In this document: positions 1 to 21,506 of the stretch, piece by piece
Numbering within the stretch: position 1 is the stretch's first letter
Layout: each line of letters begins with the position of its first letter
Origin: Nanoarchaeota archaeon
GTDB lineage: Archaea; EX4484-52; LFW-46
Length of the DNA: 64,000 nucleotides
Direction of reading: 5' to 3'
Assembly (NCBI GenBank): GCA_018897155.1
Contig: JAHILE010000048.1
Location: forward strand, 1-64,000
The notes under the pieces: generated by a model
The model's input: the letters and a program-made list of their open reading frames with translations, nothing else
The model's database searches: none
What the model was told of the DNA's origin: nothing
Position numbers and translations under genes: made by a program

Positions 1-3000
1 ATTGGGTGAACCGCGGCAATTACACCCTTGCCGGAGGAAAAGGAAACTGCTCCATAGTTGTCTGGAACTTCCTACCTTCGGATGTCAACGAAAACGTAAC
101 GTATCTGTTCCAGATTGAGGATGCAGAAACGACAAACGCAAGAAACACGACACTTTTTGGCGGGCTTAATATAACAAAGCCGGCTATCGAATTAAATTAT
201 TCGTTTGGAAACAATTCTAATGTCAATAGAAGCGCCGGTTTTGCATCGCTTGGTGTAAGGGCATATGACAGGGACAACAAAAGCTTTGTAAACGGCATTA
301 ATGTCTCGTTCTGGATTACGACAGACGGCGCGACTTACGATGCGGGCAACATCACGCAAACAAATGCGTCAGGGTATGCCAACACAACATTTAATCCAGT
401 ATGCGCGTATTCTGCAGGAATCCAGATATGGATGGCAGGCATTGTTGATTCAAGATACGCAAACAGCAATACCACTGAAAATTATACGACTAAAATATGG
501 GGCGACCTGAATGCGAATCTCATGCAGCCGCTCAACGGGCAGATATTTTTGCGCGGCTCAAACATAACGATACGCGCAAACATAACTGACGACTGCGGAA
601 CATTATGGAATATGGACAACACAACAATGGCAACGAAAAGCACAAACGCCGGAACACTATATGCGTGCTCGCCGATTGCAAATGAATCTACAGGAATCTA
701 CAATTGCACATTCAATACTTCAAGCCCTACAGTTATGCCTGCAAGATATTACAATGCGACTGTATTTGCGAACAAGACATATTATAATTTCGCGAACACG
801 ACCTATGCAAACTCGTTTTTCATAGAAACGTCCCCTGTAATCACTGCATCAAACGTAAACCCTGACGGCGGCGGATGGGGAAAGACATACACCTTTTTTG
901 TGAATGTCACTGACGAAGATTATGACGGCGTTGAGGTCACATTCTATGAGCGCGCATTAGGCGGAAGCTGGGTGTCATCGGGAATAAAAACATGCGCATC
1001 GCCTTGCATAAACCAAACCCTGAACTTTACAAAAAGCTATCTTTGCTCCAACTACCAGTCTCAGCCAGTAAGAGAATATACGTTTAATGCAACAGACACC
1101 AAATATATCAGCGAAATTGCTAAAAAGAATATGACGCTTACAAAAGATACAATCCTTGTTGAAGCAATAGACAACATCACAACAGACGGCAATATATCTA
1201 TATACCGGCCAGTCGGAGACTATAATCTGGCTTTGCGCCTTTTTGACAACGACAAAAGCGCTTATGTCGATATCCCCTACACACTTACAAAAATATGGGT
1301 AACGCAAAGTGGCCCGGGCACTAACTATATTGACCTTGAAGGAGCGTACCTATACACTAACGAAACTGGCCACTTCAACAAAACATTCAACCCAGGATGC
1401 ACCCCGAAATATTCTATAGGGATACATGGCTGGAAGGGCGGGGTAACTGACGATTCCTGCTATGTAAACACAAACAGCTCAATATACAGCCTTAACATAA
1501 CCACAGCCCCGCTAATTGCTGCAATAGAGCAGCCAAACGATGCAATGTTTAGAAGAGATATAGATAACATTACTTTGCGCGGCAATGTAACCGACGACTG
1601 CGGCCTTGTAAACGGCTCGACAACAAGCCTTTCGGCGTATAACGGCCAGAGCTACCAGAACTGTACTGCAGGAATGATAAATGACGAGGGCGCCGGCTGG
1701 TACAACTGCACGCTTACCCCGGTTTCTCCAGAATGGAGTGTCGGGCAATACGGCAAATACAATACAAGCATGTATGCCTCAAAGCAGTATTACAACATAT
1801 CAAATATCACAACAATGTCGCCGTCTTTCAACCTGACAGACCCTCCTGAAATAAAGGATATGACCTGGACATCAAGCAACCCGGTAACAAGCGGATGGGG
1901 AACAAGGCACACATTCACTGTGAAAGTAAAGGACGATGAAGCAGGATATGATACAGACACGGTTTATTTATGGAAATGGCATACTTCAACAGGGTGGGCG
2001 CTTATAAATTCAACCACTGTAATAAACAACCCGCTGTTTACAACAGTTTCATTTGAACAAAGATTCACGTGCGCAGATATCGGGACAAATTATTACAAAT
2101 TCAATGTCTCGGACAGATGGGGAAATACTAATGAAACGCAAAATGCAAGCTTTACAATAGGAAAAGATGCCGTATTTGTCCAATTAATACCTGCAAGCAA
2201 TGTTGACCGAGAAGGCCCTGCAACAACAAACCTGAAAGTGCGCGTCAGAGACACTGACAACGACTCGGTTGCATTCAACTGGATACCTGAAGGATATAGC
2301 GGCAAAATGTTTGTAACTACAAACGGCTCCGGAAGCAATGTATGGACTGTAGCAAACGGATCTATGTATACGGATTCCGGAAGCTATTTGAGTTTTGATT
2401 TCAATCCCGAATGCGCTCCGCTATATAAAGTCGGGGCCCAGGACTGGCGCGGAGGAATGGACAACGACACCTGTTTTGTAGACACCAACTCATCATCCGG
2501 CACGTTCACCATAACCGGCCAGCTTAAAGAAGGCATTGATTTACCGCCTTACGGCTCCGTATACGCAGTAGGCACAAACGTGACAATACGGACAAATTCA
2601 ACAACAGACTGCAGCGAATTGGTGAATGACTCTGCAATCAGCATACAATTAAGCAGCCCGCTGTCCGTATGGGAAAACTGCTCGGCAACAATAAACAATG
2701 AAGGAAACGGATATTATAACTGCTCATGGAACACGGAATTCCACTATGGAGGCTACTATAATGTGCAGATGAATTCGAGCAGAACTAATTATTATTTCAA
2801 TACAACTACGTGGAATAGCCAATTCTATATGAACAACACGCCTCCAAATGTAGAAAACTTTTCAGTTTCCCCCGAATCCGAAGGCTGGGGGAGTGTATAT
2901 ACATACCGCGCAGAAATATATGACGCGCAAAAAGACAACATAACTTGCGCGTTATATGTAAACACATCAGAATCAACCGGGTGGGTGCTGAAAAATAGCA

Positions 3001-6000
3001 CAACAATAGAAACTCAGCCAGCCCAAGGGCGTGCAAACTGCACGCTTTCAGTTTCAAACTTTGCTTGCGGCGAAATGGGAACAGACAATAGCTACAAATT
3101 CCAGATATATGACGGAACAAACCTGCTGAACACAAGCGTAATCTCTGGCCCGAACCTGACAGAAGATTCTGTTTCGATATCTTATTTCTACGGAAACAAT
3201 TCTGTTGTGAATAGGTCCGGAACCGAAACAACGCGCTTCATTGTGAGCGCCCTAGATACTGATAGAGGAAGCATCCCGGTACTGACTGGATCAAACATAA
3301 AATTCTGGGTAACTAAAAACGGTGCCGTATATGATGCGGGAACTGATATTGCGACCAATTCTTCGGGATATGCAAATTATGATTTCGACCCGACATGCAG
3401 CCCGACAAAATATGATGTGGGTCCGGAATATTGGGCTGCCGGCATTATTGACGGATGCTATGTTGCAACAAACCTGTCACAGAATCTCACTACAACCGTA
3501 ATTGGAAGCCTGATAAACACTATACAAATCCCGGATATCGGAACAGAATTCCTGCGAGGAGAAAACATCACGATAAAAAGCAACTCTGTAGCTACTATAC
3601 AAAGCGATTGCGTGCCCGAAGGCCTTGACGGCGTAAATAATGAAATAATTTTCCATAATGAAAACGGAATCAACAACTATTCCTGCGTAACCGGTCCCGG
3701 TACGGAAGGGTATTATGAATGCACAAGAAACACAACAGACATGAAAGCGAGATGGTACAACACAACAATGCGCTCATGGATGCAATACTACCACAATGGA
3801 ACGTCACTAAATGCAAGCCATTTCTTTGTCAAAACATTGCCTGTTCTAACAAACGAAACAGCAATCACAAATCCGGGCGGCTGGGGCGAAACATTCTATT
3901 TTAAAGTAAACCTTACTGATGAGGACCTTGATAATGTTACTGTAAACTTATATGCAAGAGATACTGCAGGCGGCTCATGGGGTGGGGCAAAAAACTCAAC
4001 AATTATATCGGCCCCGATAAATCAAACTGTTGTAATTTACTGGAACACCGTGCCTTATTGCGCCATAGGAACGTGGGAATATTATTTTGATGCAACAGAC
4101 ACGCACAACCCGTTAGATATAGTATCTACAACACCAAAGAATTTCACAATAGAACAAGACGATGTACAAATAGCTCTTGTGAGCGGCGACAATTCGTTCG
4201 CGTGGAGAAACGGCACATATAATACAACATTTACGCTCAATATAACCGACACTGACAGAAAAAACATAACAATAGGCGATAGCTCTTCGCGCTTCTGGGT
4301 GACTGTCAATGCAAGCAACCCAGGCTCTTTTGATGCCGGAAAAGACACAATGAGCTCCGGCGGATTAATAACATATTATTTCATGCAGCAGCTGCCGGAT
4401 GGCGGGCAAAAATGCGACTATTCTGTCGGAATTCAAAAATGGAAAGGCGGCACATTCAATGACGTCTGCTACAAAGATGCAAATTCAACCGCGTATTCCG
4501 TAATTATAAACTCAAGCCTAATGCCGAACATAACAAACCTGCATGACCAGGGATATTTAAGAGGGGACAAGATTCCAATAAATGTATCTGTAATTGATGA
4601 TTGCCAGACAGTCGAAAATGCAACAGTTATAAACAGCTTAGTAAATCCGCCAAACACATACTACTGCAGCAAACAAGATAACTGGGCATGGAACGAAAGC
4701 AACGGAACGTATATATGCATATGGGATTCGACAAACAAGCCGTATAAATGGTACAATGTCACGGCAACAGTTTCAAAGAATTATTATGTGCAAAGCTCAA
4801 CACCGGGCACAGACAGGTTCTTCTTAGGCACAACGCCGAAGCTGGATTTCCCTTCAGTAAACCCGACATTCGGCGGATGGGGTGAGAACCATCAATTCAG
4901 CGTGAGGCTGACAAGCCTTGACCTTGCAACAAACAATGTATCCCTCTGGAAAAGCCTTGACAACATTTCATGGAACGTTGTCAACTGGCAGTTAGTAAAT
5001 ACACCGGTAAACCAGTGGGTCTACTTCAACGAAAGATTTACTTGCAATGACTACTTGACGCCGCCTTCGGGACGTAATTATTACCAGATAAAATCCGCAA
5101 GCGTGTTCGGATTCAGCAACGAAACGCCAATACTTAATTTCACTCTCGACTATGACAATATAACCATACCAACATTAGGGGGGAACGACAGTGTAAGGAG
5201 GCTTGGCACAACAACGGCATTCCTCCAAGCAAGAATCTATGACAGCGATTATGGAGTTTATCAAAATAATACTGCAGGAAATATTTGGATAACGTCGGAC
5301 GGAAATAATTTCAGCTCAAACCAGACGTGCACAACATCAAACGGATATTGCAATATAAATTACGATCCACAATGCGATATATCCACAGGAGTGCAAAAAT
5401 GGAAGCTGGCAGTTGAGGATGCATGCTATCAAAAAGTAAACTCCACAAATGCAACGCTGACTGTCATGGGCCAGCTATATAGCAACCACGTAAATCCGAC
5501 AACAAATGCAATCATCAACAGAAACACCACAACGCCTTTGAATACCACAGTAATTAATGACTGCAACGGCGCAATTACCGGCGCCACAATATATTGGTAC
5601 AATAGCACTCCAAAGCAGATTGCAATAGGATATAATACAACATGGAAGGTTCCTGTAACTTATGCAAAAGGACCTGAAACAATAACAACAAACGCAACGC
5701 AACAGTACTATGACAACGGAACAAACTCAACACAAGTCTATATATATGGATGGAGTAAGATAAACTACACCAGCCTCTCAAACAGCTCAAGCTATCTTGC
5801 AGGTGAGTATGTTGAATCATATTGCATGGTAATAGATGCCAACACAACTGCATATCTTCAAAATTACAACGTAAGCTATTACAAAAACGGAAGTTTGCAG
5901 ACCTCTGCAATGACAAATGAAAACGGAACTGCATTATGGAATTGGTCCACAGCATCTGAAAACTTCGGATGGTATAATATAACGTGTATAATTTCAAATG

Positions 6001-9000
6001 ATAACGCCCAATACTATACGCCGTCAATTCCGCAAATTGAAAGCAATGTGAGAATAAACAGATCCACGGTTCTTAAGTCCCTATCGCTTTCCAACTCATC
6101 AATATTCAGGAATGATTCCTATAACCCGTACAAAACAAACATATCAGTAACTATCTATGACGCAGTTATAGGGCCTGCAGACGGGGCAAACGTCACATTC
6201 TATAATTCAACCGAACTTATCGGCAATTGCACGACTAATCCGAGTGGCAACTGCTTCATAACATATAATGCGCCAGACAATTCAACTCCGGGAATTTACA
6301 TAATATATATAAACTCAACCAAGACAGGACTTGAGCCATCCATAACAAATCAGACCAACATCACTGTGACAGGAGTACTATTCATAAACATAACACAGCC
6401 AGCAAACGATTCGTCGTGGGGTAAATCGACGACGCTCAATGTAACGTCCGATATATGGAATGAAAACGGCTATATTGATAACGCAACTGTAAATTGGTAT
6501 ATTGATACAAACTATGTTGCAAGCGGACAAAACGCGTCGTTTTCGCTATCGTCGCAAACGCCAGGAAGCAGAAAATTGACCGCGAATGCAACGAAATCAT
6601 ATTACCAACAGGCAGCGTCAAATATATCCCTAAGAATAAACGGTCTTGCTGACGTAAACTGGTGGTACCCGCCGGACAGCTCTCTGCAGCCATATCCGGT
6701 TCCATTTGAAATACAGTGCCGCGTAACAGACAACACGTCAGCAAGTGTCATTCAGGGATATGATGTCAATTTCTGGTACTGGAACGGCTCAAGTTATATC
6801 TTCAACGGAACATATGCAACAGATAATTTCGGCATTGCAGGCACTACATGGTATCCGGATTCAAAAGGAAGCATAACCTTCATGTGCAACATAACTGAGA
6901 ATACAACAATGTATTATTCGCCGAATATTAAAAGTGCAACTGCAACAATAATGGTGCAGGATACAAACCCGCCGTCAATAACGAATACAAGCATACTGCC
7001 AAACCAGAGCATTGAAGCAAATCTCAACTCAACAGCAATAACTGCAAATGTTACTGACGATTTAAATGTTTCTTCAGTCATCGCAAGAATAGTTTTACCC
7101 AACAGCAGCGTAATAAACCGAACAATGGCAAATATATCACAAAACATATACACAGTCCAATACCTGCCGCCCATAGGAGGAAATTATTCAGTGACAATAA
7201 TGGCGTGGGATTCGCCGCCCGAAAGCAACTTAAATGCAACGTATGCGGGAAACTTTACTGTATGGGGAAAAATAAACATGACTTCTGTTCAAACCGATGA
7301 AGCAGTAATAAACGGCATAACGCAATCAAACGGGGCACAATTTGTAATTGAAGCCAATGCAACTAATCTCGGGCCTGCAAACGCGTATAATGTAACACTG
7401 ACCATGTCTGATTCCCCGCCGGGCGTCTTATCCTACAACACCACGCAATACTCTTGCGGAAACCTCAGCACAGGCCAGAATTGCTCGCGCGCGTTCCTTG
7501 TAACTGTACCCCCGGCAACGCCGCCACAAATAATATATTCAAAAGTCACAACATCCTGGCGCAATCCGGATCTGACGCTTGAAAATGTCGAAAATATAAC
7601 AGACGTAATAATCTCGGCAAATCCAATAATTGATATATATGAGCCATCTCTCATAAACAACACTCCGCATGGAATGACAACCAAAGCAGGAACATTAACA
7701 ATAATATCTGCAGGAAACTGGCCTGTTGACAACATAGCCATAAACACCGTGGGCGGAAATCTTGCAACATCATGCCCGGGATGCAACATCACAATAAGCC
7801 AGCCCCTATGGGGAACTCTTCCGGCAGGAAGCAATTTCACAACAGACATAACTGTTGTAGTGCCGTTTGGGCAGCCGCCCGGCAACTACTGGACATCCGT
7901 GCTTGCATCATCAGATGCCGGCGTTGATTGGATAATCATGAACCTTACGGTTCCGCTCAACACTTCATGGACCAGAAATCCGGCGACATTCGGAACAATA
8001 CTCGCACTGGTAAATTCAAGCGATTCAGTAGGCAATATAGTTGCAACGCATATAGGCAACCAAAAGATAGATTTCAAGCTATATGAATCACAAAACGGAA
8101 GCGCGCTTGTTTCATTTGCTCCGCTGGCATTCACATTAAATGTCCTTTCATCAGTCAATATTTCGCTGAATTACACAATTCCGATAAGCCAGACACCGGG
8201 CATGTATTACTATCAGCTTCTGATAAGAAACACATCGGCAAATCCGCCGGAATACATAACAGACATGTGGCTGAATGTAACCGACACACCGCCGACAATA
8301 TCAAATGTCATCATTAATCCGATGGGCTATGAGGCGGGCACAGAATACACAAACATAACCGCAAGAATAACAGACAATGTGGCTGTGGCGTCAGCATGGA
8401 TAAACGCGACAAAGCCGAACGGAACAGAATTCATAAAATACTTTGATACAAACGGCCCCGAAGTTTTCACAAACTACAGCGAAAATGAAACAGGAATACA
8501 CAGAATCAGAATATGCGCAAGCGATGTTATGGGGCTTGAAGGATGCACGCAGGAGTATAATGTCAGCGTGATGATGAACACTACGCTTTTGGCAGAAACA
8601 AACATAACGAATTCATCAATAGGCGGGGTTCTTCTTGCGTCCGGAGTAAATGTTTCGTTCAATTTCAGCATAAGAAATATCGGCTATTCACGGGCACTGA
8701 ACGCAAACACCACAATAAGCGTTCCTGAAAACTGGAGCGTAACGGACAGCTTTTTCACTGCCGGAAACATCATAAAAGACAATGCATATAGCAATACGAC
8801 AATGCTTCAGATTGCACCCGACTCCATGGGCACATATTACATAAACTTCACATCAAACTGGACAAACTTCGATAATACAACCGATTGGAGCCTAACACAA
8901 ATAAAGATAATTGTGACTTCAAATCCCGCACTGGATGTTATTGATGATCCGCTTACGATGTATGTTGAAAGCGGAAGTTCCGGCAATTACACATTTGTTT

Positions 9001-12000: not shown

Positions 12001-12851
12001 TCAGGCCATGTAAAGACCCGCACATGATTGAACTTTACGCGAAATACGGCCTCAAGCCGGAGGATGCAAAGGCATTCAAAACAAATATAATAGTTGTCAA
12101 CAGCGCGAACAGCCTTACCGATGATGAAATAGACCTACGCAAATACATGAAACCCGGAGAAATCACAGTATTTATAATGAGCAAATTGCGCTCATCAGAA
12201 CTCGACGCGTTTGTCAGGCGCACTATCCAAAAAATATTCAGCATACAATGGCCTGAGGCAAATACGCTCAAAGTGCTTGTTGTCTACGACGAAATGCACA
12301 GGCTGCTTCCGAAGTACGGAGGCAAAGGCGGATATGTAGAACTTGAGAGAGGGTGCAGAGAATTCCGTAAATGGGGCATCGGCTTATTCTTGATATCACA
12401 AGTCCTCTCAGACTTCAAGGGTTCAATCAGGGCAAACATTGCAAACGAAATACAGCTGCGAACCAAGTACAATGGAGACATAAATCGTGTCAAGCAAAGA
12501 TACGGAACAGACTACGCGCTTCGGGTTGTCAAGCTAACAGTTGGCGCAGGGCTCCTGCAGAACCCGGAATTCAATGAAGGAAAGCCGTGGTTCATACAGT
12601 TCAGGCCGCTGCTTCACGACACAGGCAGGCTGAGCGAAGAAGAGCTTACCACATATACGAACATAAAGCAGAATATCTTGAATATGGAAACCAAGATAGC
12701 GGCGCTAAAATCGCGAGGTATCGACACATATGATATAGAGCTTGAACTGAATATGGCGCGCGACAAAACAAAACAGGGAATGTTTAAGATGGCGGAGACC
12801 TACATGGAATCAGTTAAAGCAAGGCTGAGTTCCATGGGTGGCGGAGCATAG
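1..12851 (+). CDS. Giant Ig-repeat surface protein fused to a cytoplasmic HerA/VirB4-like ATPase (5' partial)
   Basis: The frame is open to the left window edge. The first possible start (GTG at 6) has no signal peptide, so the true N-terminus lies outside; residue numbers below count from position 6. Residues ~1-3550 are Asn/Thr/Ser-rich, beta-type and dense in N-x-S/T sequons, as expected of a glycosylated archaeal ectodomain. A tandem array of ~332-residue units comes first, then single Ig-like and NEW3-like modules. A Cys motif of the C-G-N-x2-C...C-x3-D-C kind (nt ~10735-10800) precedes a poly-Gly linker (~3609-3640). One hydrophobic span (~3886-3906) followed by Arg/Lys places the rest in the cytoplasm. 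There, Walker A GGTGSGKS (3962-3969) and Walker B VLVVYDE (D4095-E4096) define a HerA/DUF87-type ATPase, ending in a helical hairpin. Known: HerA/VirB4/FtsK ATPases are hexameric motors for DNA or protein export. Inferred: an energised surface fibre or secretion device. The fusion looks real, because one frame runs unbroken. Confidence 0.85.
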   Translation, partial: WVNRGNYTLAGGKGNCSIVVWNFLPSDVNENVTYLFQIEDAETTNARNTTLFGGLNITKPAIELNYSFGNNSNVNRSAGFASLGVRAYDRDNKSFVNGINVSFWITTDGATYDAGNITQTNASGYANTTFNPVCAYSAGIQIWMAGIVDSRYANSNTTENYTTKIWGDLNANLMQPLNGQIFLRGSNITIRANITDDCGTLWNMDNTTMATKSTNAGTLYACSPIANESTGIYNCTFNTSSPTVMPARYYNATVFANKTYYNFANTTYANSFFIETSPVITASNVNPDGGGWGKTYTFFVNVTDEDYDGVEVTFYERALGGSWVSSGIKTCASPCINQTLNFTKSYLCSNYQSQPVREYTFNATDTKYISEIAKKNMTLTKDTILVEAIDNITTDGNISIYRPVGDYNLALRLFDNDKSAYVDIPYTLTKIWVTQSGPGTNYIDLEGAYLYTNETGHFNKTFNPGCTPKYSIGIHGWKGGVTDDSCYVNTNSSIYSLNITTAPLIAAIEQPNDAMFRRDIDNITLRGNVTDDCGLVNGSTTSLSAYNGQSYQNCTAGMINDEGAGWYNCTLTPVSPEWSVGQYGKYNTSMYASKQYYNISNITTMSPSFNLTDPPEIKDMTWTSSNPVTSGWGTRHTFTVKVKDDEAGYDTDTVYLWKWHTSTGWALINSTTVINNPLFTTVSFEQRFTCADIGTNYYKFNVSDRWGNTNETQNASFTIGKDAVFVQLIPASNVDREGPATTNLKVRVRDTDNDSVAFNWIPEGYSGKMFVTTNGSGSNVWTVANGSMYTDSGSYLSFDFNPECAPLYKVGAQDWRGGMDNDTCFVDTNSSSGTFTITGQLKEGIDLPPYGSVYAVGTNVTIRTNSTTDCSELVNDSAISIQLSSPLSVWENCSATINNEGNGYYNCSWNTEFHYGGYYNVQMNSSRTNYYFNTTTWNSQFYMNNTPPNVENFSVSPESEGWGSVYTYRAEIYDAQKDNITCALYVNTSESTGWVLKNSTTIETQPAQGRANCTLSVSNFACGEMGTDNSYKFQIYDGTNLLNTSVISGPNLTEDSVSISYFYGNNSVVNRSGTETTRFIVSALDTDRGSIPVLTGSNIKFWVTKNGAVYDAGTDIATNSSGYANYDFDPTCSPTKYDVGPEYWAAGIIDGCYVATNLSQNLTTTVIGSLINTIQIPDIGTEFLRGENITIKSNSVATIQSDCVPEGLDGVNNEIIFHNENGINNYSCVTGPGTEGYYECTRNTTDMKARWYNTTMRSWMQYYHNGTSLNASHFFVKTLPVLTNETAITNPGGWGETFYFKVNLTDEDLDNVTVNLYARDTAGGSWGGAKNSTIISAPINQTVVIYWNTVPYCAIGTWEYYFDATDTHNPLDIVSTTPKNFTIEQDDVQIALVSGDNSFAWRNGTYNTTFTLNITDTDRKNITIGDSSSRFWVTVNASNPGSFDAGKDTMSSGGLITYYFMQQLPDGGQKCDYSVGIQKWKGGTFNDVCYKDANSTAYSVIINSSLMPNITNLHDQGYLRGDKIPINVSVIDDCQTVENATVINSLVNPPNTYYCSKQDNWAWNESNGTYICIWDSTNKPYKWYNVTATVSKNYYVQSSTPGTDRFFLGTTPKLDFPSVNPTFGGWGENHQFSVRLTSLDLATNNVSLWKSLDNISWNVVNWQLVNTPVNQWVYFNERFTCNDYLTPPSGRNYYQIKSASVFGFSNETPILNFTLDYDNITIPTLGGNDSVRRLGTTTAFLQARIYDSDYGVYQNNTAGNIWITSDGNNFSSNQTCTTSNGYCNINYDPQCDISTGVQKWKLAVEDACYQKVNSTNATLTVMGQLYSNHVNPTTNAIINRNTTTPLNTTVINDCNGAITGATIYWYNSTPKQIAIGYNTTWKVPVTYAKGPETITTNATQQYYDNGTNSTQVYIYGWSKINYTSLSNSSSYLAGEYVESYCMVIDANTTAYLQNYNVSYYKNGSLQTSAMTNENGTALWNWSTASENFGWYNITCIISNDNAQYYTPSIPQIESNVRINRSTVLKSLSLSNSSIFRNDSYNPYKTNISVTIYDAVIGPADGANVTFYNSTELIGNCTTNPSGNCFITYNAPDNSTPGIYIIYINSTKTGLEPSITNQTNITVTGVLFINITQPANDSSWGKSTTLNVTSDIWNENGYIDNATVNWYIDTNYVASGQNASFSLSSQTPGSRKLTANATKSYYQQAASNISLRINGLADVNWWYPPDSSLQPYPVPFEIQCRVTDNTSASVIQGYDVNFWYWNGSSYIFNGTYATDNFGIAGTTWYPDSKGSITFMCNITENTTMYYSPNIKSATATIMVQDTNPPSITNTSILPNQSIEANLNSTAITANVTDDLNVSSVIARIVLPNSSVINRTMANISQNIYTVQYLPPIGGNYSVTIMAWDSPPESNLNATYAGNFTVWGKINMTSVQTDEAVINGITQSNGAQFVIEANATNLGPANAYNVTLTMSDSPPGVLSYNTTQYSCGNLSTGQNCSRAFLVTVPPATPPQIIYSKVTTSWRNPDLTLENVENITDVIISANPIIDIYEPSLINNTPHGMTTKAGTLTIISAGNWPVDNIAINTVGGNLATSCPGCNITISQPLWGTLPAGSNFTTDITVVVPFGQPPGNYWTSVLASSDAGVDWIIMNLTVPLNTSWTRNPATFGTILALVNSSDSVGNIVATHIGNQKIDFKLYESQNGSALVSFAPLAFTLNVLSSVNISLNYTIPISQTPGMYYYQLLIRNTSANPPEYITDMWLNVTDTPPTISNVIINPMGYEAGTEYTNITARITDNVAVASAWINATKPNGTEFIKYFDTNGPEVFTNYSENETGIHRIRICASDVMGLEGCTQEYNVSVMMNTTLLAETNITNSSIGGVLLASGVNVSFNFSIRNIGYSRALNANTTISVPENWSVTDSFFTAGNIIKDNAYSNTTMLQIAPDSMGTYYINFTSNWTNFDNTTDWSLTQIKIIVTSNPALDVIDDPLTMYVESGSSGNYTFVLNSTGNDIAQNIQINCTGGIACTAFNMSLNPQYIASLVKGNASNITINASIPVGYIPGVYNGVLNVSSDTSSIKANISVIVPANLTWRHSPTSIKMEVAAGTNGTFGIVTVSNIGNLPVVLQSLSTNTTLFTVNASTINLPVGTYSTVAVNYTAPLVSAIENYIAYFRTVNSTAVPQNQSTLLNITVQPIYLYIVSPTTASPKINVSSGNTVETTINLTYSLQPLYENVTWEINLTNEGSLVTVNTTYANYSNTTKLWTINFTAPAIMEGAAHTLIAKAFYSTKNISVEGIQKDAIVYVDSAAPLISLSAPTAANRNSIVPIYVNITDSGGVRNALLEITDPSSLLQSVNATLMGSSGNLYRFNYNYSNTSLLGTYRIVAKGYDLSGNMNTTNTTFDIYNPAYISGYLLDIESPNSTAPIPGNFRMYKNDTGTLLHSFATNNITGYYYQSAFVRMYDVLLDALNVSMKFKNFNMPSEGITDPVSLGNIPLSLIGSGPLKAVYVTSKMNAQYMNITFDYSPYIGVSANDVQVYYCGNWTNQIGCTGTWFRQNSSVDTLTRTVMLNTQASAGAYALSQFICGNKMCESIYGESNANCPKDCPIPEGQEIPPIIGGGSTSGGGGGGGGGGGTSGGGGSSGGGSAGVPVATIKPDNRTTTDNVPIEIKSTLLYITLAPGEREIHSIEIKNNLNEIINSKLTVEGLVWELIKIEKTDFDLGPKSTENVKIEAYALPSTRPGIYTGDIVAVTGNMTYRTPITIKIELKEEPLLDVILKMLSDIVRPGDDAQFLVTIKNMGETASVEDIIMNYVVKNLQDGTVLTTDKETLAVNQTLTYTKTIRIPNGTAEARYVIDANATYANGVKYAGSAATFDVSMQPWPVIILRRLFTSWLTYIILLIVIPGIYFGRRAYNAYKDKKARDARYIFPMDYAKLPQKGDKSLQVGKIAETDINSYLDIKNLTMHSIAAGGTGSGKSVTAMVTAEELLKRGIPVVVFDPTAQWSGFIRPCKDPHMIELYAKYGLKPEDAKAFKTNIIVVNSANSLTDDEIDLRKYMKPGEITVFIMSKLRSSELDAFVRRTIQKIFSIQWPEANTLKVLVVYDEMHRLLPKYGGKGGYVELERGCREFRKWGIGLFLISQVLSDFKGSIRANIANEIQLRTKYNGDINRVKQRYGTDYALRVVKLTVGAGLLQNPEFNEGKPWFIQFRPLLHDTGRLSEEELTTYTNIKQNILNMETKIAALKSRGIDTYDIELELNMARDKTKQGMFKMAETYMESVKARLSSMGGGA
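300..5470 (+). repeat. Tandem ~332-residue (about 1 kb) protein-level repeat units
   Basis: Five copies of a G-W-G turn followed by a beta-rich Ig-like stretch have their Trp codons at 876, 1896, 2886, 3882 and 4878. The spacings are 1020, 990, 996 and 996 nt. Each unit reads GWG module, then a module containing a 'FW(I/V)T..G..YDAG' type motif and 'W..G..D..C', then a module starting near 'LRG.NITI' with a 'DDC' motif. A partial unit precedes the first GWG. Similarity is clear in protein but weak in DNA, so the expansion is old. Confidence 0.8.
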
Positions 12852-12870
12852 AGTAAAAAGGGCGATAATA

Positions 12871-12910
12871 TCTTGAAAGCGTTTGCAAAAATGCGCTTTC
12901 AAGATTTTTA
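12871..12910 (+). terminator. Perfect 11-bp hairpin with T-run after the giant gene
   Basis: Arms at 12871-12881 and 12894-12904 (TCTTGAAAGCG and its exact complement) are followed by ATTTTTA. The hairpin lies between the giant gene and the coiled-coil gene. It could end transcription, limit read-through, or be a processing hairpin in a polycistron. Confidence 0.6.
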
Positions 12911-12951
12911 GCCCAGATAGAATGGCAAAAAATTAATGGAGATGGCTAAAA

Positions 12952-15534
12952 ATGGCGGAAAAAAAGAGCAAAAAGACAAACGAACTTGACGAGATGAGCC
13001 TCGACGAGCTGATAGAAAGATGCAAGCAGATAAAAGAGCTTCTTGCGAACCTTGAGAACCAGTACAGATCTGCGGAAATTACTGAACAAAGCTACAAGCA
13101 GACAAAGGACGCAAACACAAAAAAGCTCGGTGAAGTAAGAAAGCGCCTTGAAGACTGGGGAATTAAGGACGAAGATATTCCTGCGCCACTTTCCGCTGCG
13201 CAAAAGCCTGCCGCGAGCACTTCCGCCGCTCCAGCATCAGCACTTTCGCAGCCTCAAGCCTCCGCAACGCCAGCCGCTACAACACTATCGTCAGCAGCCC
13301 AAAAACCCGCACCGGTTCCGCCGCCGGTACAAGCGCCGGTTTTTACTCCGCCGATAGAAACACAAGAAACAAACGAATCTGCCCAAGAAACGCCGGTTGC
13401 CCCGCCAGCACCGAGCACTCCAATATCATTCACGCAAAAACTGAAACAACAATTTATGCCGTCTTCCCAAAGGTCGCCGGAAGATCCCGCATATATTTCG
13501 CAGACTGTGCAGCTTGAGCTCCAAAAATTCCAGGAAAAATTCAATGTGGATCTTGAGCGCATAAAGGCATCAATCGATGCTATTAAAGAGACACGCGCAT
13601 CATCTGAAGAAAGAATACATATGCTGACTGAAGGAATTGCCGAACTCAGGTCAAACGTATTTCAGCGCGAGGCAAATTTAAAAGAGCAGGAAATGAAGCT
13701 TACTAAACTGAAGGAAATGGTTGATGACGTCGAGCCGCAAAAAATAAGCAAAGAATTCTCAAAACGCGACAAGACATCTTCGGACATTGAAGTCCGGCTT
13801 GAAAAGCTGGAAGTAAAAACAAACGACCTCATAAAGACAGTTAATGAAATAAATGCTTTGCTCAAAAGCATTGGAGGGCTTGAAAATGTGGCAGATGTAA
13901 ACCATGAAGTTACGAAAAAATTCGAAGAGATACGCGAAATAAACACCGCCACAGAAAGGCTGTCTTCAAAAGTCGAAAAGATATTCATAGATATAAACAA
14001 GCGGCTTGAAAAATTCAACATATACGAAGCCAGGCAGGACAATATAAGCGAAATTGTCAACGACATGATACGAAACTTCGACGCACTTTCGCTGAAGTTT
14101 GAATCCTATGCGGAAAAAAAGGATCTGACCACTACCAAAGAAGACATCACAGACATCCAAAAAAAAATGGAAGAGCTGAAAAAGACGCTGAAAAGGGTAG
14201 TGCCATTTGCAGAGGCGCAAGTTCCGGAAGAAATCCAGGCGCTTCAGACTGAGCGGGAAGATATCGAATCGCTTCTTTCCTCAATAGAATACGAACATGA
14301 AAAAAAGCAAATCACCGACGATGAATACGCATCAATAAGGGAAAAGAATGGCGTACGGCTCAAAGAAATAAAGCAGAAAATCGCAAACGCTGTGAAAAAA
14401 ATCGCGCCTGCCGATGAAGAAAAGGATGCTGCGTCAAATACGAAAAATCAGAACCCATCATTGGTTGATGCGATGTCAAAAGACATGGACGCAATCAAAA
14501 CTGCGGCAAAAAAGAATGCTGAAGAATCCAAAAAGAAAGATGAAGCTGCCAAAAAAGAAGCTGAAGAAGCAGCTGAAACCGAAAATGAAAAAAATGTTGA
14601 AGAAACAACTGATGAAGAAAATGATGAGTCCGACAAAGAAAACGAAGCTGAAAGCCCTGACGCAAAAGAGAAAAAAGAAACGCAGGGAAAAAAGCATTCA
14701 AATGCAAAATCGGCTAATCCAAAAAGTTATGAAAATGCACCTGAAAAAACAGAGATAATTAATGAAGCGGGAAAAGAACCGCTGCCGGAAATAAAAAAAG
14801 AAATGATGGAACAAACAGTTGCAGAAGAAAATAAAGATGAAACGTTTGCGCAACATGTGCCCGTTCCCGCCGCCGATACAAAACATAAAGAAAAATGGCG
14901 CGCCAAATCCAAAAAGGCGAAACATAACAAACAGAAAATAGTTCGAAAGGCACGCGAAACAAAAGAGAAAAATGAACAAGTGGAGCGCGCAACGCGAATG
15001 TTTTTGCGCGCAAATGAAATTGAGCGTCCGAATGCTGTTCGCGCAAAAAAAGCAGCTTTAAAAAAGAAACTAAAGAAAAAAGTGGCGCCATCAAAACAAA
15101 ACAAAATGCATGCAAAAAGACATGCACATCATGCAGCCAAATCTACCGCGAAAAAAACAATAGCATCTTCGCGTGCAGTGAGGCTCGAAAATCGCGCAAT
15201 TGCAAAAGAGAAAATAAAAACAGCCACAAATAACGCAGCCCAAACATCAAGAAAATCTCTTCGCTCATCCCACGGCCTGTTTGTTCCTGCAAAAGAGATT
15301 ACAGATATAAAAAGTGTTATATCAGCCGGCGCGCAGAATGCGCAAACGCCAAAAAAACAGGATATTTCGCCGCAGAAAAATGCCGAAGCTGCAAAAGAAA
15401 TAGCAAACGCGCCGGCAAAAAAAGGCGAAAATGAAACAAATCCACTGCTTGCAGAACTCACTGAATCGCTGAAGCAAGGGCTTATTTCAAAAGAGACTTA
15501 CGAAAATACAAAGAAGCTGCTAATGATGGGTTAG
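12952..15534 (+). CDS. Large charged coiled-coil protein with SHOCT-like hairpins at both ends
   Basis: This is an 860-aa protein without signal peptide or membrane span, so it is probably cytoplasmic. A GGAG ribosome site lies ~10 nt before the ATG. Residues ~12-65 form a Leu/Glu/Lys helical hairpin with an 'aeITeqsY' turn. A Pro/Ala-rich linker (~80-160) follows, then a long coiled coil (~180-420) and a second hairpin (~425-480, 'kqITddeY'). After that comes a very Lys/Glu/Ala-rich disordered stretch (~490-810), and the last ~30 residues form a third hairpin ('qGLISketY'). The turns resemble SHOCT domains, short oligomerisation modules. The gene sits between two surface-protein genes whose cytoplasmic tails carry similar hairpins. 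Inferred role: an intracellular scaffold or adaptor linking them. The sequence shows no enzyme motif. Confidence 0.75.
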   Translation: MAEKKSKKTNELDEMSLDELIERCKQIKELLANLENQYRSAEITEQSYKQTKDANTKKLGEVRKRLEDWGIKDEDIPAPLSAAQKPAASTSAAPASALSQPQASATPAATTLSSAAQKPAPVPPPVQAPVFTPPIETQETNESAQETPVAPPAPSTPISFTQKLKQQFMPSSQRSPEDPAYISQTVQLELQKFQEKFNVDLERIKASIDAIKETRASSEERIHMLTEGIAELRSNVFQREANLKEQEMKLTKLKEMVDDVEPQKISKEFSKRDKTSSDIEVRLEKLEVKTNDLIKTVNEINALLKSIGGLENVADVNHEVTKKFEEIREINTATERLSSKVEKIFIDINKRLEKFNIYEARQDNISEIVNDMIRNFDALSLKFESYAEKKDLTTTKEDITDIQKKMEELKKTLKRVVPFAEAQVPEEIQALQTEREDIESLLSSIEYEHEKKQITDDEYASIREKNGVRLKEIKQKIANAVKKIAPADEEKDAASNTKNQNPSLVDAMSKDMDAIKTAAKKNAEESKKKDEAAKKEAEEAAETENEKNVEETTDEENDESDKENEAESPDAKEKKETQGKKHSNAKSANPKSYENAPEKTEIINEAGKEPLPEIKKEMMEQTVAEENKDETFAQHVPVPAADTKHKEKWRAKSKKAKHNKQKIVRKARETKEKNEQVERATRMFLRANEIERPNAVRAKKAALKKKLKKKVAPSKQNKMHAKRHAHHAAKSTAKKTIASSRAVRLENRAIAKEKIKTATNNAAQTSRKSLRSSHGLFVPAKEITDIKSVISAGAQNAQTPKKQDISPQKNAEAAKEIANAPAKKGENETNPLLAELTESLKQGLISKETYENTKKLLMMG

Positions 15535-15551
15535 ATACAAGATACAATTCA

Positions 15552-18500
15552 ATGGGATTCAAAATGAAACAAAGAGTTATTTTGTTTGCAATGATTGCAG
15601 CGATAGCTCTGCTTTTATCACCTCTACTTGTCAATATTGCCAATGCGCCGACAGACCCTTACTGGTTCGATACGTCGTGGCATTTCAGGATTGCGCTGGC
15701 AATCAACAATACAGATTATGCGCGAGATAACTGGCCGATTGAACATGATATGAATTTCACCGCATTGATAACACAAACTGGAAAAAGCGGCACTTTCGAT
15801 TACAATTCCATACGCATTTACGCGCATAACTCAACCGGCGGCGTAATGCACCCGATGAAATACCAGTTCGACAACGCGTCGGACTCAAGTGCAGCATCAA
15901 ATGCCGCAGGAACTCTTGTATTCCTCTTGAATGGCACAACAGCGGCAAATGAAATCCGGTATTTCTACGTTTATTTCGACACAATTGAAAATGGCGCGAA
16001 AAGCCCGCCGTCATTTTCCACAAACCTCAACTATTCATGGGATGGCAAAGAAGCGCATGTGAATAACAGCATGCTGCGATGGAAAATAGATACGATGCGA
16101 AATGAAAATACTTCTGGATTATATGATGCAAAAGGAAACTCAGCAACCATATTTACGCAGGCAACTTCAAACAGAACAATCGAATACATACAATATTCAA
16201 ACGGAACAAATAATTTTTCTTTTGATTTTAGGAACAATGCGACGTTTATTTCAGGACCTATAATGCTGAGGCTCGAACAAGCCGGAAATGAAATGCTTTG
16301 GAACAACCCCGACGCAATAACTGGAGCCGGATGGATGAAAAAGACGTACGTATTTTATGAAAATACAAAATGGCTTAAGATAATTCAAAACTTCACAAAT
16401 ATCGGCGGCTCTTCCATAACAAGAAACTCAACAAACGGAGGCGCGCTTTCCGTGAATGAACTCATAGACAACAGCTTACTACCGCCTTTTGGAAACGAAA
16501 GCAATCCGATGTCCAGATACGGCGCTTCTGACGGCAGCAGAGGTGTCGGAATAATAAATGTGAATTCCAGCAGCAACGCGAATTACTCCGCAGTTTACGA
16601 TGCGGCTCTTGACAGGATAGGGATTAATCTTAACAGCACAACACTGGCTCCGCAGGAATCCATAATACAAACAACAGTAATGCAATTCGATGATGTCCAG
16701 TACAGCGATGACCAAAACCTTCTTCCGTTAAGAAACCAGCTGCTTTACCCTCCAATAATTACGCAAGACAATCCGCAATACATAACATTTATGCTGGAAT
16801 CAAAAACAAACTACACCATCCACAACAGAAACGAAAGCGTGCTGATTACTGGAAATACTACATTCGATCCGTACAACATCAGTTCATCAATGAATGCCAC
16901 TCTTGATATGGGAACGGCGGATTCTGCGGACGATATAACAATAGTTTTGTATGACGACGGAAGTGCTGAACATGGCGATGCAACTGCATCAGACACTATA
17001 TTCTCCAACTACTTCAACTTATCCGAGGATAGCGTATTTGGAACATGGAATATCACCATAAACGCGTATGATATTTCAGACATTCTTCTGAACCAAAGCA
17101 TCACAGCATTCAATGTAACAAATGAATACAGTACAAGCATAAATATAAGCAATCCTGACGGGTTTGTCGACCGCATAATAAACACTACACTAAATGTGAA
17201 AAATAAAAGATACGACACGTTTATTCCGGGCGCAACGCTTAACTGCAGCTACAGCGGCTCCGGCGAGCTGACAAATATAACAGACTACGGCAATGGCACA
17301 TACCTCTTGAATTTTACAGCCCCTTCAATAACCGGCTCATATCTTCTTAATTGCAGCGCGATAAAATTCAACAACACTGGATGGGCCGCCCAATGGTTCT
17401 ATACTGAAACCAGCGAGACAATGCTATTACTGAACATAACTCCGGAAAACCACACAACAAGCAATATAACGCGAGCAACAGGCAATTCATTTATAATTAA
17501 TCTTAATGCCACAGACATTGGAGGCGCAAATGCAAAATATACGAATATGACTCTTTCGCTGCCTCAAAACATCACTGCAAATGCAACAAACGCAAGCTGC
17601 GGAACTGTAATAATGGGAACCTCTTGCCTGAGGGATTTCAATATAACAATAGCCAACGGAACCTCGCCCGGAAACTATACACTAAATACAAGCGTGGTGT
17701 GGGAGAACCCGGACACTTCAAAAAATACAACAAATTCATCAGTTACCATATACGTCTTATCAAATCCTCAAATTAATATAACTCCAGCAAATATTTCCGG
17801 TAACGCTCCTGACGGGAAAACGGTTACCATAGGAACATTTACGGTATGGTCTATAGGAAATGACAACATCACAAACACTACGTTTAATGTGACCGGAATT
17901 CCGGACTTTTCAGTGTCTTTCAGCCCGCAAAACATATCCGGCCTTGCAGCCGGAAGCTCACAGCCGGTTTCAGTAAACGTGACTGTTCCATCAGATTATG
18001 CGCCGGGAAACTATACTGGAACAATAAATGCCAGCACAATAAACGATGGATGGAAAACAATAGAGCTTAATGTAGCCGTGCCTTCAACAACAAACCTATC
18101 GATAAACATAACGCCTCAAAACTACACATCCCGAAACATATCTTATTCAAACAGCGAATCATTCAACATAACTATCAATACTAGTAACACGGGCGTAACC
18201 GGCGCAAAAGACGTAAACATAAGCCTATCGCTTCCGCAAAATCTCAGCGCAAATTCGACAATTGAAAACTGCGGCAACATCAGCACAAATTCATTCTGCA
18301 TAAATCAATTCAACATAACAATAAGCAATCAAACAGCTCCGGGAAATTATACATTCAACATAACGGCAACATGGAAAAATCCCGATTTGTCGATAAATTC
18401 AACAACCACCAATATGACCGTTGCTGTGCTATCCAATCCACTATTAAATGTTTCAGAAGGCGGCATATCAACAATACTCTTTGACAATACGACAGCATAT

Positions 18501-21500
18501 GCGGGCAATTTCACAACATACTCGCTTGGAAATGACAACCTGACAAACATCACGTTCAATGTTACCGGACTCTCGAACTTTACATTCACCTTTTTGCCGG
18601 CAAACATCTCAACTTTAGGAGTAAACAGCTCACAGCTTGTCTCTGTAAATGTTTCTGTTCCGTTCGCATATTCTCCAGGTAACTATACCGGAACAATAAA
18701 TATGAGTTCGATTAATGACGGCTGGAAGGTTATTGAAATAAATGTAAGTGTCCTTATAAGACGCGAATGGAGCATTTCTCCGACACATTGCGAAAGGGCG
18801 GAAAATCCCGACACCGGAACAGTATGCTCTGTAGCCGTATCCAACACAGGAAACGCACCCATAAACTTTACTGTCAATCCTTCCGGAATAAATTATACTT
18901 CGGCAAATGAAACCAATTTCACAGTGGCTAAGAATTCAACACACTCGCTCGTATTTCTTTATAATGTCTCAAACATCACAAAGGATTTTTTCTATTCCTT
19001 TTATACCATTAACGCCACAGACGCGGATGCATCTCCGCAGTATAGCAACTTCAACATAACCTTAATACCCTATGTTATACCGTTGTTTTCAGTGAACGTC
19101 CTGCCGAACGAAACCGAGCAGAGAAAAAATGTCGAGATAATGGTAAATGTTACCGACCGCTCCACAACCGGAATAAACTGGACTCAAATGAATATAACGC
19201 TTCCAAACGGCACGCTTGAAACGCATAACCTGACGCGTATAGACGTAAACGGAACTTTCAGCCAATGGTATTTTAATTATTCAGGAATTATGAATATCTC
19301 CAATCTGACAAACATGAGCGGCAATTTATCAAACATCACATTAAATTACACGGGAAGCACAGCATTGCGCGGCACCTATAATATATCCATCACATCACAG
19401 GATAATACTGGAGTTGCTGGAGATGTAAATGGAAGCTTCAAAATACATGCAAAAATGCTTATTGGATTCCTTCCGGGATCAACAAAATATTATCAGGGCT
19501 CAACAGGTTCTCTTTATTATGCTGCAACTGATTCTGAGGATAATGCGCTTAGCGGAGCAAATGTAACTATAAAGATAAAAGACTCTTCAGGAAACTTGAC
19601 TTATCTCCAAACATTCTCAACAGGATCAAGCGGACAAATACTTCCAACCCCGACATTCCTTTTGCCAAATGATGCTAAAGTCGGGCAATACAACATTTCT
19701 GCATACACAACATATTATGATGCGATTGCAGACAAAATATTAAATGCAACTAACAATGCATCATTCAGCCTGCAATCCGGTTCATCTGGCGGTGGAGGCG
19801 GACTTGCCGCATATGTGGACACTGCTGTTGTCTGGTACCCTGACAATGTGATGCGCTTTGAAATGTGGTTCTCATATGCAGGAAATGTGACTGATCCAGA
19901 CAATATGACTTTGTTTGTGTATGATCCTGCGAGCAACCTGTATTTTAACATAAGCCTTACAAACGCAAACAGATCATCCGCAGGATTGTATAATTACAGG
20001 TATGCTATGCCGATTAATACTGCTTCAGGATATTACTTCGCCATCCTCACAGCATCAAAAGAAGGCTTTGTAAGCCAGATGGTAAAGCCTTTCAGAGTTG
20101 CAAAAGGCGGCCCCTATGACGTAAAGCTGACAGTATTGCCGCCTCTTGAAGTGTCGCGGCAAGACTACCTTAGCTTTGAAGTGCTTGTGGAAAACATGGG
20201 AGAAGTCACGCAGGACGTTTATATCGATTATTGGACGTCCTATGAAAACAATACATATTATTATAGTGGAGAAGCCATACTGACGCCCGTGGGCGTGAAT
20301 ATAACAATAATAAGAACGGCATACATCTTTTCCAATCAGCCTCTTGGGATGAACACGCTAAACTTAAAAGTGACATACGACAGCGTACAGGCACCGATAC
20401 TTTTGAGCGCCAATTTTGAAGTAGTTGATGATTATATAAACATACCTCCTCCTCCGCCACAACCGCCTCCGCCAGACTATGACTATGAAAGTGGAGGGGG
20501 TGGTGGGGGAGTTATTGAAAGAATAATTTATTTGCCGCCTGAAGAACTTCCGGAAACCGATGCGGCTGGAATTGGCAAAAGATCAAGCATAGAAATAGAG
20601 AGCTATAACAAAGAAATAAACATAGTGCGAGGATGGACATCGCTTGAAAGCGTAAAAGTGAAAAATACAGGCAACACAACACTGAAAAACATAACGCTTT
20701 TGTTATCCGGAATACCTTCTTCATGGTTCAAAATAACTCCAAAATATTATGAAAGCCTAACTTCCGGAAACAGCACAATATTTTTGATAGAATTCAAAAT
20801 ACCAAATAATGCCGAGTCTGGAACATACAACATCGTTTTCACAGCATCATCTATTGAAAGAACAACTGAAAAAGTCGGCCGCCTGATAATTTTCACATCG
20901 ATTGAAGAACTCGTAAATCAAGAGATTATAAACCTTAAAATAGATGTAGAAAAGCTTGAGGAAGACACAGACTATTCCGAACGGCTTGGAAGAAATATTT
21001 CGCAAATCCGGGATATTATAGCATCTGCGCGAGCCCAAATAAAACTAGCTGAAGACAATGCAAAAAAGAAGGTATTTGATGACGCGCTCCTTAACACGCA
21101 AACAGCGTCAGGCCTGATAAAGCGCGGAAAACGCCTGCTTGAGTCCCTTGTAACCGAAGAGCCATCAGTCTCGCAGAAACCAACACGAAATGTCTGGCTT
21201 ATGGGGCTTGAAGCGCTTTTAATAATTATTTTAATAGCTGCAATAGCGCTATGGACGATACGGTCGCGCGGGAAGCTCAAATGGGAAAACATAAAGGCAT
21301 ACCTCAAGAAGAAAACCGAAAAGAGCGCGACAAATGAAGAATTGAAGAAAGAGCTTGTTGCAGAAAAGGAAAAAATAGCCCGAATGACAAAACTCCTTGA
21401 AAGCGAGCTTAAAGAAGGCATAATAACGCAGAACGCATATAATGAGCTGAAGAAGAGAAATGATGAAAAGCGAGCTAAGATAGAGCAGCAAATCAAAAAG

Positions 21501-21506
21501 ATTTAA
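15552..21506 (+). CDS. Secreted, C-terminally anchored Ig-like surface protein
   Basis: The 1,984-aa protein has a clear signal peptide (~5-32, ending near 'ANA') and a DUF2341-like start ('WFDTSWHFR'). Many Asn-rich beta modules with sequons follow. Two adjacent copies (~620-860 and ~860-1090) of a paired domain both carry a 'SLPQN(I/L)...CG' motif and a 'P.(D/A)Y.PGNYTGTIN' NEW3-like motif. Similar modules occur in the giant upstream protein, so the two are related by domain duplication. Near 1640 there is a Pro-rich then Gly-rich hinge, followed by another NEW3-like domain and a short coiled coil. A single membrane span ('LEALLIIILIAAIALW') leads to a ~75-residue basic cytoplasmic tail ending in a SHOCT-like hairpin ('eGIITqnaY'). 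It starts 17 nt after the coiled-coil gene and is probably co-transcribed with it. Probable role: S-layer-like or adhesin partner of the giant protein. Confidence 0.8.
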   Translation: MGFKMKQRVILFAMIAAIALLLSPLLVNIANAPTDPYWFDTSWHFRIALAINNTDYARDNWPIEHDMNFTALITQTGKSGTFDYNSIRIYAHNSTGGVMHPMKYQFDNASDSSAASNAAGTLVFLLNGTTAANEIRYFYVYFDTIENGAKSPPSFSTNLNYSWDGKEAHVNNSMLRWKIDTMRNENTSGLYDAKGNSATIFTQATSNRTIEYIQYSNGTNNFSFDFRNNATFISGPIMLRLEQAGNEMLWNNPDAITGAGWMKKTYVFYENTKWLKIIQNFTNIGGSSITRNSTNGGALSVNELIDNSLLPPFGNESNPMSRYGASDGSRGVGIINVNSSSNANYSAVYDAALDRIGINLNSTTLAPQESIIQTTVMQFDDVQYSDDQNLLPLRNQLLYPPIITQDNPQYITFMLESKTNYTIHNRNESVLITGNTTFDPYNISSSMNATLDMGTADSADDITIVLYDDGSAEHGDATASDTIFSNYFNLSEDSVFGTWNITINAYDISDILLNQSITAFNVTNEYSTSINISNPDGFVDRIINTTLNVKNKRYDTFIPGATLNCSYSGSGELTNITDYGNGTYLLNFTAPSITGSYLLNCSAIKFNNTGWAAQWFYTETSETMLLLNITPENHTTSNITRATGNSFIINLNATDIGGANAKYTNMTLSLPQNITANATNASCGTVIMGTSCLRDFNITIANGTSPGNYTLNTSVVWENPDTSKNTTNSSVTIYVLSNPQINITPANISGNAPDGKTVTIGTFTVWSIGNDNITNTTFNVTGIPDFSVSFSPQNISGLAAGSSQPVSVNVTVPSDYAPGNYTGTINASTINDGWKTIELNVAVPSTTNLSINITPQNYTSRNISYSNSESFNITINTSNTGVTGAKDVNISLSLPQNLSANSTIENCGNISTNSFCINQFNITISNQTAPGNYTFNITATWKNPDLSINSTTTNMTVAVLSNPLLNVSEGGISTILFDNTTAYAGNFTTYSLGNDNLTNITFNVTGLSNFTFTFLPANISTLGVNSSQLVSVNVSVPFAYSPGNYTGTINMSSINDGWKVIEINVSVLIRREWSISPTHCERAENPDTGTVCSVAVSNTGNAPINFTVNPSGINYTSANETNFTVAKNSTHSLVFLYNVSNITKDFFYSFYTINATDADASPQYSNFNITLIPYVIPLFSVNVLPNETEQRKNVEIMVNVTDRSTTGINWTQMNITLPNGTLETHNLTRIDVNGTFSQWYFNYSGIMNISNLTNMSGNLSNITLNYTGSTALRGTYNISITSQDNTGVAGDVNGSFKIHAKMLIGFLPGSTKYYQGSTGSLYYAATDSEDNALSGANVTIKIKDSSGNLTYLQTFSTGSSGQILPTPTFLLPNDAKVGQYNISAYTTYYDAIADKILNATNNASFSLQSGSSGGGGGLAAYVDTAVVWYPDNVMRFEMWFSYAGNVTDPDNMTLFVYDPASNLYFNISLTNANRSSAGLYNYRYAMPINTASGYYFAILTASKEGFVSQMVKPFRVAKGGPYDVKLTVLPPLEVSRQDYLSFEVLVENMGEVTQDVYIDYWTSYENNTYYYSGEAILTPVGVNITIIRTAYIFSNQPLGMNTLNLKVTYDSVQAPILLSANFEVVDDYINIPPPPPQPPPPDYDYESGGGGGGVIERIIYLPPEELPETDAAGIGKRSSIEIESYNKEINIVRGWTSLESVKVKNTGNTTLKNITLLLSGIPSSWFKITPKYYESLTSGNSTIFLIEFKIPNNAESGTYNIVFTASSIERTTEKVGRLIIFTSIEELVNQEIINLKIDVEKLEEDTDYSERLGRNISQIRDIIASARAQIKLAEDNAKKKVFDDALLNTQTASGLIKRGKRLLESLVTEEPSVSQKPTRNVWLMGLEALLIIILIAAIALWTIRSRGKLKWENIKAYLKKKTEKSATNEELKKELVAEKEKIARMTKLLESELKEGIITQNAYNELKKRNDEKRAKIEQQIKKI

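Follow-up and report, generated by a model that had tools for sequence, protein, structure and literature searches.

A giant SPEARE-type protein with a HerA-like motor, encoded beside a coiled-coil partner and a second anchored surface protein in a DPANN archaeon: a candidate contact-dependent translocation unit

The stretch of DNA analysed here (the window) comprises positions 1-64,000 of contig C48 (73.1 kb) from the archaeal genome G000 (1.43 Mb). It opens with three genes on the same strand, separated by gaps of 100 nt and 17 nt, whose products we call P0001 (the giant frame), P0002 (a coiled-coil protein) and P0003 (a second surface protein). The original prediction made for this DNA had proposed an undescribed system. 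For the giant protein this did not hold, since proteins of its kind have been published under the name SPEARE (PMC6642349, PMC8470020, PMC10266531) and P0001, judged by its sequence, is one of them, a known but poorly understood kind. The conserved partners do look new: the motor domain of these proteins is almost always encoded beside a dedicated coiled-coil partner, to which one branch adds a second surface fibre, an arrangement that appears to be undescribed in the literature as far as it is searchable. This conserved core of motor plus coiled-coil protein, with an optional second fibre, is what the locus adds to the known giant protein, and it turns attention away from the fibre and towards the motor and its adaptor. 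The three genes are as follows.

3..12851, + strand, giant SPEARE-type protein (P0001), C-terminal 4282 aa, truncated at the 5' end where the contig stops
12952..15534, + strand, soluble coiled-coil partner (P0002), 860 aa, without a transmembrane helix; homologues lie beside nearly all such motors
15552..21506, + strand, second anchored surface protein (P0003), 1984 aa, with a signal peptide, NEW3/MG2 immunoglobulin (Ig)-like domains, a helical stalk and a C-terminal transmembrane helix

All three had been foreseen in outline: one unbroken frame joining an Ig-repeat ectodomain, a membrane span and an ATPase, an adjoining cytoplasmic coiled-coil protein, and a second anchored Ig-like surface protein. 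The frame at 3-12851 runs for 4282 codons without a stop and off the start of the window, which is also the contig end, and along it an Ig/FN3-like ectodomain is followed by a single membrane helix and then, in the cytosol, by an intact P-loop ATPase in which both Walker motifs were found. Its features are listed below.

828..5882, + strand, super-repeats of about 332 aa made of Ig/FN3-like beta-sandwich domains (repeat starts and predicted structure)
11628..11711, + strand, single transmembrane helix, aa ~3876-3903, C-terminus inside (transmembrane prediction and sequons)
11889..11912, + strand, Walker A GGTGSGKS, aa 3963-3970, K3969 corresponding to HerA K154 (alignment)
12279..12293, + strand, Walker B VVYDE, aa 4093-4097, E4097 corresponding to HerA E356 (alignment)
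12357..12377, + strand, REFRKWG, aa 4119-4125, R4122 corresponding to the HerA trans arginine R381 (alignment)
12555..12848, + strand, C-terminal helical extension behind the ATPase (alignment and AlphaFold model)

Five super-repeats of 330-340 aa, starting at residues 291, 631, 961, 1293 and 1625, lie within the first 1,960 residues of P0001 and share an invariant G-W-G, a W and several Cys. The predicted structure of one repeat unit is all-beta, with a predicted local distance difference test (pLDDT) score of 66 overall and about 80 in the first 120 residues, and its first domain matched FN3/Ig sandwiches with Z scores of 10.6-11.2 over about 100 residues. Because of this fold match the term Ig-like is supported for at least the first repeat domain; for the remaining ectodomain it is supported by Pfam NEW3 matches, which occur in both P0001 and P0003, together with secondary structure. 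N-glycosylation sequons occur at 6.1 per 100 aa before the membrane helix versus 0.27 beyond it, and the helix is followed by an Arg/Lys-rich stretch. This contrast and this stretch place the ATPase in the cytosol.

The 4282 residues of P0001 are a fragment, and the N-terminus of the protein is encoded on a different contig of G000. An open reading frame (ORF) at G000:C9:11175-14810 encodes 1212 aa, beginning with a signal-like helix and continuing with the same type of repeat up to the contig end; the middle of the gene was not recovered in G000. Aligned to a 9591-aa fragment from a relative (G015), the C9 piece stops near residue 975 and the window piece starts at residue 5345. We infer from this alignment that the two pieces belong together, that about 4,300 aa between them are absent, and that the complete chain would be close to 10,000 aa long. 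In every assembly seen of the window's subfamily (G000, G001, G004, G015, G019 and G028), a contig end interrupts the giant gene, probably on account of its repeats, and because of these breaks published lengths such as 8146 aa are possibly underestimates.

The cytosolic part of P0001 was modelled with AlphaFold at a pLDDT of 89.8 and a predicted TM-score of 0.88, and it bears out the HerA-like motor that had been proposed. Pfam DUF87, the HerA central domain, matches P0001 with an E value of 7.5e-10, HerA was the best hit in a profile search against solved structures (E 4.7e-13), and the best solved fold for the model is HerA (4d2i; Z 25.9 over 256 residues), followed by VirB4 (4ag6; Z 23.2 over 238 residues, root-mean-square deviation 2.8), TrwB (Z 20.3), FtsK (Z 18.1) and the type VII ATPase EccC (Z 16.9). 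In HerA, K154, D176, E356 and the trans-acting R381 have been found essential by mutation (PMC4351679). Their counterparts K3969, D3991, E4097 (with D4096 the DE of Walker B) and R4122 are invariant in 24 of 24 sequences, so the loss of sensor or arginine-finger residues that would have spoken against a working motor was not seen.

The window motor also departs from its nearest relatives. The N-terminal domain of HerA is the HAS barrel (PMC11291478), for which there is no room in the roughly 60 aa between the end of the transmembrane helix and Walker A. No NurA or other nuclease partner lies beside the motor, PF09376 had no match in the G000 genome, and, unlike HerA and the HerA-type defence ATPases, the motor is membrane-anchored and fused to a fibre. 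A role in HerA-NurA repair was rejected because the HAS barrel and NurA are lacking and because four other DUF87 proteins are present elsewhere in the genome. Anti-phage defence was also set aside: PADLOC gave only partial HerA/mad8 matches to the ATPase core, and the rest of the locus gave no support for it. With VirB4, VirD4-TrwB and TraG motors P0001 shares a similar fold and a membrane-proximal position. Unlike type IV secretion motors, it has no detectable VirB4 N-domain (PF03135), which likewise gave nothing over the cut-off in five genomes and nothing at E<=1 in the single-contig genome G050, and no other type IV secretion gene was recognised in the three-gene unit. VirB6 and VirB8-10 domains were absent from P0001-P0003 by Pfam; no genome-wide search was made, and archaeal forms diverge strongly.

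These comparisons bear on the possibility that the protein is a membrane translocase for DNA uptake or export between symbiont and host, similar to crenarchaeal Ced or to FtsK/TraG. The closest NCBIfam profiles are those of the DNA motors HerA and CedD, the folds are those of HerA, and DPANN archaea need host nucleotides. However, both profiles scored only 35 bits, far under their cut-offs of 800 and 600, neither a relaxase nor a nuclease nor NurA adjoins the unit, and the fold is also that of protein-secretion ATPases such as EccC. We therefore regard DNA transfer as unlikely, if still worth keeping in mind.

The name SPEARE was given to such giant proteins by Hamm et al. in 2019 (PMC6642349). 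Metagenome-assembled genomes of EX4484-52 from a mud volcano were reported in 2021 to carry SPEARE proteins of 8146 and 3105 aa (KA24) and 12,127 aa (KA27), in an account that gives only lengths and transmembrane helices together with the older protease/endonuclease reading (PMC8470020). A re-analysis of 2023 interpreted them as Ig fibres joined to a VirB4/TraG-like ATPase and acting as secretion 'straws' (PMC10266531). Two of our genomes, G004 and G010, could be matched to KA24 and KA27 by frame length, and in G050 the giant gene at 256299-282941 (26,643 nt, 8880 aa) has the exact published length of BNXNv_0298. P0001 has the giant, mostly extracytoplasmic ectodomain with adhesion-type domains that marks SPEARE proteins, a transmembrane helix near the C-terminus with a cytoplasmic region behind it, and a conserved intracellular ATPase homologous to that of published members; its motor is 46% identical to that of BNXNv_0298 over about 385 aa, and the two fall in one 47-row clade with support of 100/99. 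Laminin-G, listed in 2019, had no Pfam match in the 4282 residues of P0001. A further domain expected of SPEARE proteins was likewise absent from these residues by Pfam and NCBIfam, the middle of the gene lying outside the search. Such domains are also denied in SPEARE proteins by the 2023 re-analysis (PMC10266531), and their lack does not exclude membership in the family as it is now understood.

Like the SPEARE proteins NAR1_1133, SVXNc_0300 and BNXNv_0298, P0001 combines a giant secreted Ig-like ectodomain, a C-terminal transmembrane helix and a cytosolic ATPase with a helical end, and BNXNv_0298 too has a coiled-coil homologue nearby. It differs from the Nanohaloarchaeota proteins in lying on a different branch of the tree, in lacking a tandem short paralogue, and in being followed directly by the coiled-coil gene and then by a second anchored fibre; within its searchable text, the published account of the Nanohaloarchaeota mentions no coiled-coil gene and no second fibre. 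In KA24 (G004) the motor is 78% identical to that of the window, and the locus holds the same three genes, which is the gene order that had been sought in relatives. The tandem paralogue concerns BNXNv_0297, the gene after the giant one, which has been taken as a separate VirB4 with PF03135 (PMC10266531). In our analysis BNXNv_0297 (L073:14413-16299, - strand) has the motor of the giant protein as well as transmembrane helices at 4 and 236, its ATPase is sister to the giant's with support of 100/100, and PF03135 gave no match in it at E<=0.05. Going by these sequence comparisons, it appears to be a tandem copy of the giant SPEARE protein with a short ectodomain, which would correct the published reading and explain the 'second VirB4' gene of Nanohaloarchaea. 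Similar tandem sister motors were seen in G010, G023, G031 and L047.

The partner gene P0002 contains the following features.

13609..13746, + strand, family signature at aa ~220-265: E227, G/A230, E231, R233 and P262 (family alignment)
13009..13167, + strand, helical hairpin, N-terminal copy, limits approximate from family members; also present in the P0003 tail
14221..14376, + strand, helical hairpin, middle copy, limits approximate from family members
15448..15531, + strand, helical hairpin, C-terminal copy (LTESLKQGLISKETYENTKKLLMMG)

The association of this protein with the motor was counted at 71 distinct motor loci, each followed by 700 bp or more of sequence, and among 652 ORFs. By BLAST, a P0002 homologue is encoded one to three genes downstream of the motor on the same strand at 61 of the 71 loci, and 61 of the 62 matches among all 652 ORFs occupy that position. 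A profile search recovered two of the ten loci missed by BLAST (G009 and G014), giving 63/71, and some of the remaining loci are at contig ends. Across 61 genomes, motor and partner occurred together in 27 and were both missing from 30; one had the motor only and three the partner only, two of these three carrying motor fragments (Fisher p 7e-13, a value that ignores shared ancestry). Within 62 P0002-family proteins E227, R233 and P262 are each kept at 97%, and because of these near-invariant positions membership in the family amounts to more than coiled-coil likeness. Some names for the protein were tried and rejected. FlaC of the archaellum is not claimed, FlaC_arch having matched only 2 of 30 members (E ~1e-4) among generic coiled-coil matches; the matches to SMC/Rad50 were generic coiled coil; and a CdvA-like coiled coil reached 26.3 bits against the P0002 N-terminus, below the cut-off of 30.

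In P0003 two further features are relevant to its relationship with P0002.

21183..21245, + strand, transmembrane helix of P0003
21339..21503, + strand, cytosolic tail with the hairpin common to the coiled-coil partner

Homologues of P0003 come next at the loci of the window's subfamily and of many Aenigmatarchaeota, conserved at 32-59% identity over up to 1,970 aa. A hidden Markov model built from only 14 P0003 tails finds 29 of 67 coiled-coil proteins, several of them at three places, and matched one other ORF weakly (E 0.0065). The shared hairpin suggests that P0003 and P0002 may meet in the cytosol. The hairpin was suspected by eye to be SHOCT, for which there was no Pfam match, and it is left unnamed.

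The motor is present in most families of the window's order, in 53 of the 145 Aenigmatarchaeota genomes searched, in 3 of 28 genomes of another archaeal phylum, and also in Woesearchaeota, Nanoarchaeota, one Micrarchaeota genome and G050. That ATPases of the HerA/VirB4 type normally act as separate proteins, as had been assumed, fails in DPANN, where SPEARE fusions have been published. A motor encoded as a plain cytosolic gene was not found among the complete loci examined; the short motor frames checked in context were either cut by contig ends (e.g. 458 aa in G089) or had a transmembrane helix of their own. This bears on the concern that the fusion is an assembly artefact or a frameshift joining two genes, which might be raised because in G000 and several related genomes the 5' end of the gene falls at the edge of a contig. 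Since the fusion recurs in many DPANN genomes and in assemblies made independently, among them single-contig G050 and others in which the gene is interior and encodes 10,914 to 12,145 aa (the latter also being the longest frame seen), an artefact is ruled out for practical purposes.

The Woesearchaeota forms have a short ectodomain of about 600 aa between two transmembrane helices. In the Woesearchaeota locus L054, a PKD/CarboxypepD_reg surface protein (5083-8094) precedes the motor and a large Big_13/CARDB protein (13811-21062) follows the coiled-coil gene; this gene order indicates that different surface proteins flank the same core of motor and coiled-coil protein. The same three genes are also present on L040 (JAEOTG010000200.1), a 3.5-kb contig labelled Heimdallarchaeota, which is probably a mis-binned DPANN contig and possibly comes from a symbiont in the same sample. 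The range of ectodomains is relevant to a reading of P0001 as an adhesin with a regulatory tail, in which the fibre attaches and the ATPase serves as a contact sensor, clustering device or anchor. In its favour, the ectodomain is by far the largest part of the protein and the most variable in length, from short in Woesearchaeota to about 10,000 aa elsewhere. Against this, it is the ATPase that is conserved while the ectodomain varies, and all of the catalytic residues are kept, making a purely regulatory tail improbable.

The original prediction had seen in the fusion a device for energy-driven assembly, retraction, secretion or transfer, and some such function may be inferred. The host-attached setting it envisaged was judged right; the symbiont context and the surface synthesis of a SPEARE protein have been published (PMC6642349). 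The most likely reading, to which we give an even chance, is that the three-gene unit of this DPANN archaeon, a relative of the Nanohaloarchaeota and EX4484-52, encodes a contact-dependent translocation motor with built-in host-binding fibres. Because all of the close folds work as rings, the ATPase would assemble into a ring (hexamer) beneath the membrane, with one external fibre per subunit. The fibres would bind the host cell and so bring the motor to where the two cells touch. The coiled-coil protein could dock on the cytosolic face and either link the motor to the tails of the second fibre or bring substrate, and ATP hydrolysis would power the passage of a polymer, either protein or DNA, through the symbiont membrane at the point of contact.

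Several points weigh against this proposal. Beside the unit we identified no substrate, no channel and no component for secretion or DNA transfer, and the VirB4 N-domain is without a match above the cut-off in the five genomes mentioned. One helix per subunit would give at most a narrow bundle. The shared hairpin is a short coiled-coil-like element, and its sharing suggests contact without proving it. The only proteomic study (PMC6642349) recovered the outer part of a SPEARE protein and its cytosolic part from separate size fractions, because of which fibre and motor might be cleaved apart. Lastly, the relatives compared are not phylogenetically independent.

It could also be that the motor acts on the fibres themselves, in the export, assembly, clustering or retraction of the ectodomain. 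The motor is covalently tied to the fibre, the second fibre and the coiled-coil protein are neighbours that could couple the two, and no substrate gene was seen. However, the ectodomain starts with a signal-peptide-like helix in the C9 ORF and in other genomes, which makes Sec export the simple route, and while HerA-class rings move polymers through a pore, none is known that reels in its own membrane helix. A fibre-acting motor seems to us quite unlikely.

Returning to contact-dependent translocation, a wider form of the proposal is possible, although we hold it more tentatively and at somewhat under even chances. The DPANN archaea as a whole may possess a machine for contact-dependent translocation that differs from both HerA-NurA and known type IV secretion, consisting of a fibre-bearing membrane ring motor that always comes with a coiled-coil adaptor (E..xGELR...P) and to which one lineage adds a second fibre, docked via the shared cytosolic hairpins. 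The giant SPEARE proteins would then be the extreme of a range that includes the short-ectodomain forms of Woesearchaeota. A motor with a constant partner gene that bears a short, recognisable signature is a concrete candidate for the exchange of molecules between DPANN archaea and their hosts.

Between the giant gene and the P0002 gene, a strong RNA hairpin is predicted at window positions 12869-12914, with a 13-bp stem followed by T5, and the 100-nt gap that contains it has a minimum free energy of -28 kcal/mol (z -4.05). A possible role for this hairpin is that of a terminator or mRNA end. G001, of the same genus, has an inverted repeat of different sequence in the same place (L061:13300-13349), and the corresponding 37-nt gap in G004 is without an evident inverted repeat. 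Further along the window, a largely ordinary archaeal region encodes ATP synthase D, GatE, GatD, MatE, EF-2 and two tRNAs, along with an Eco57I/MmeI-like restriction-modification methylase of 986 aa at 35737-38694.

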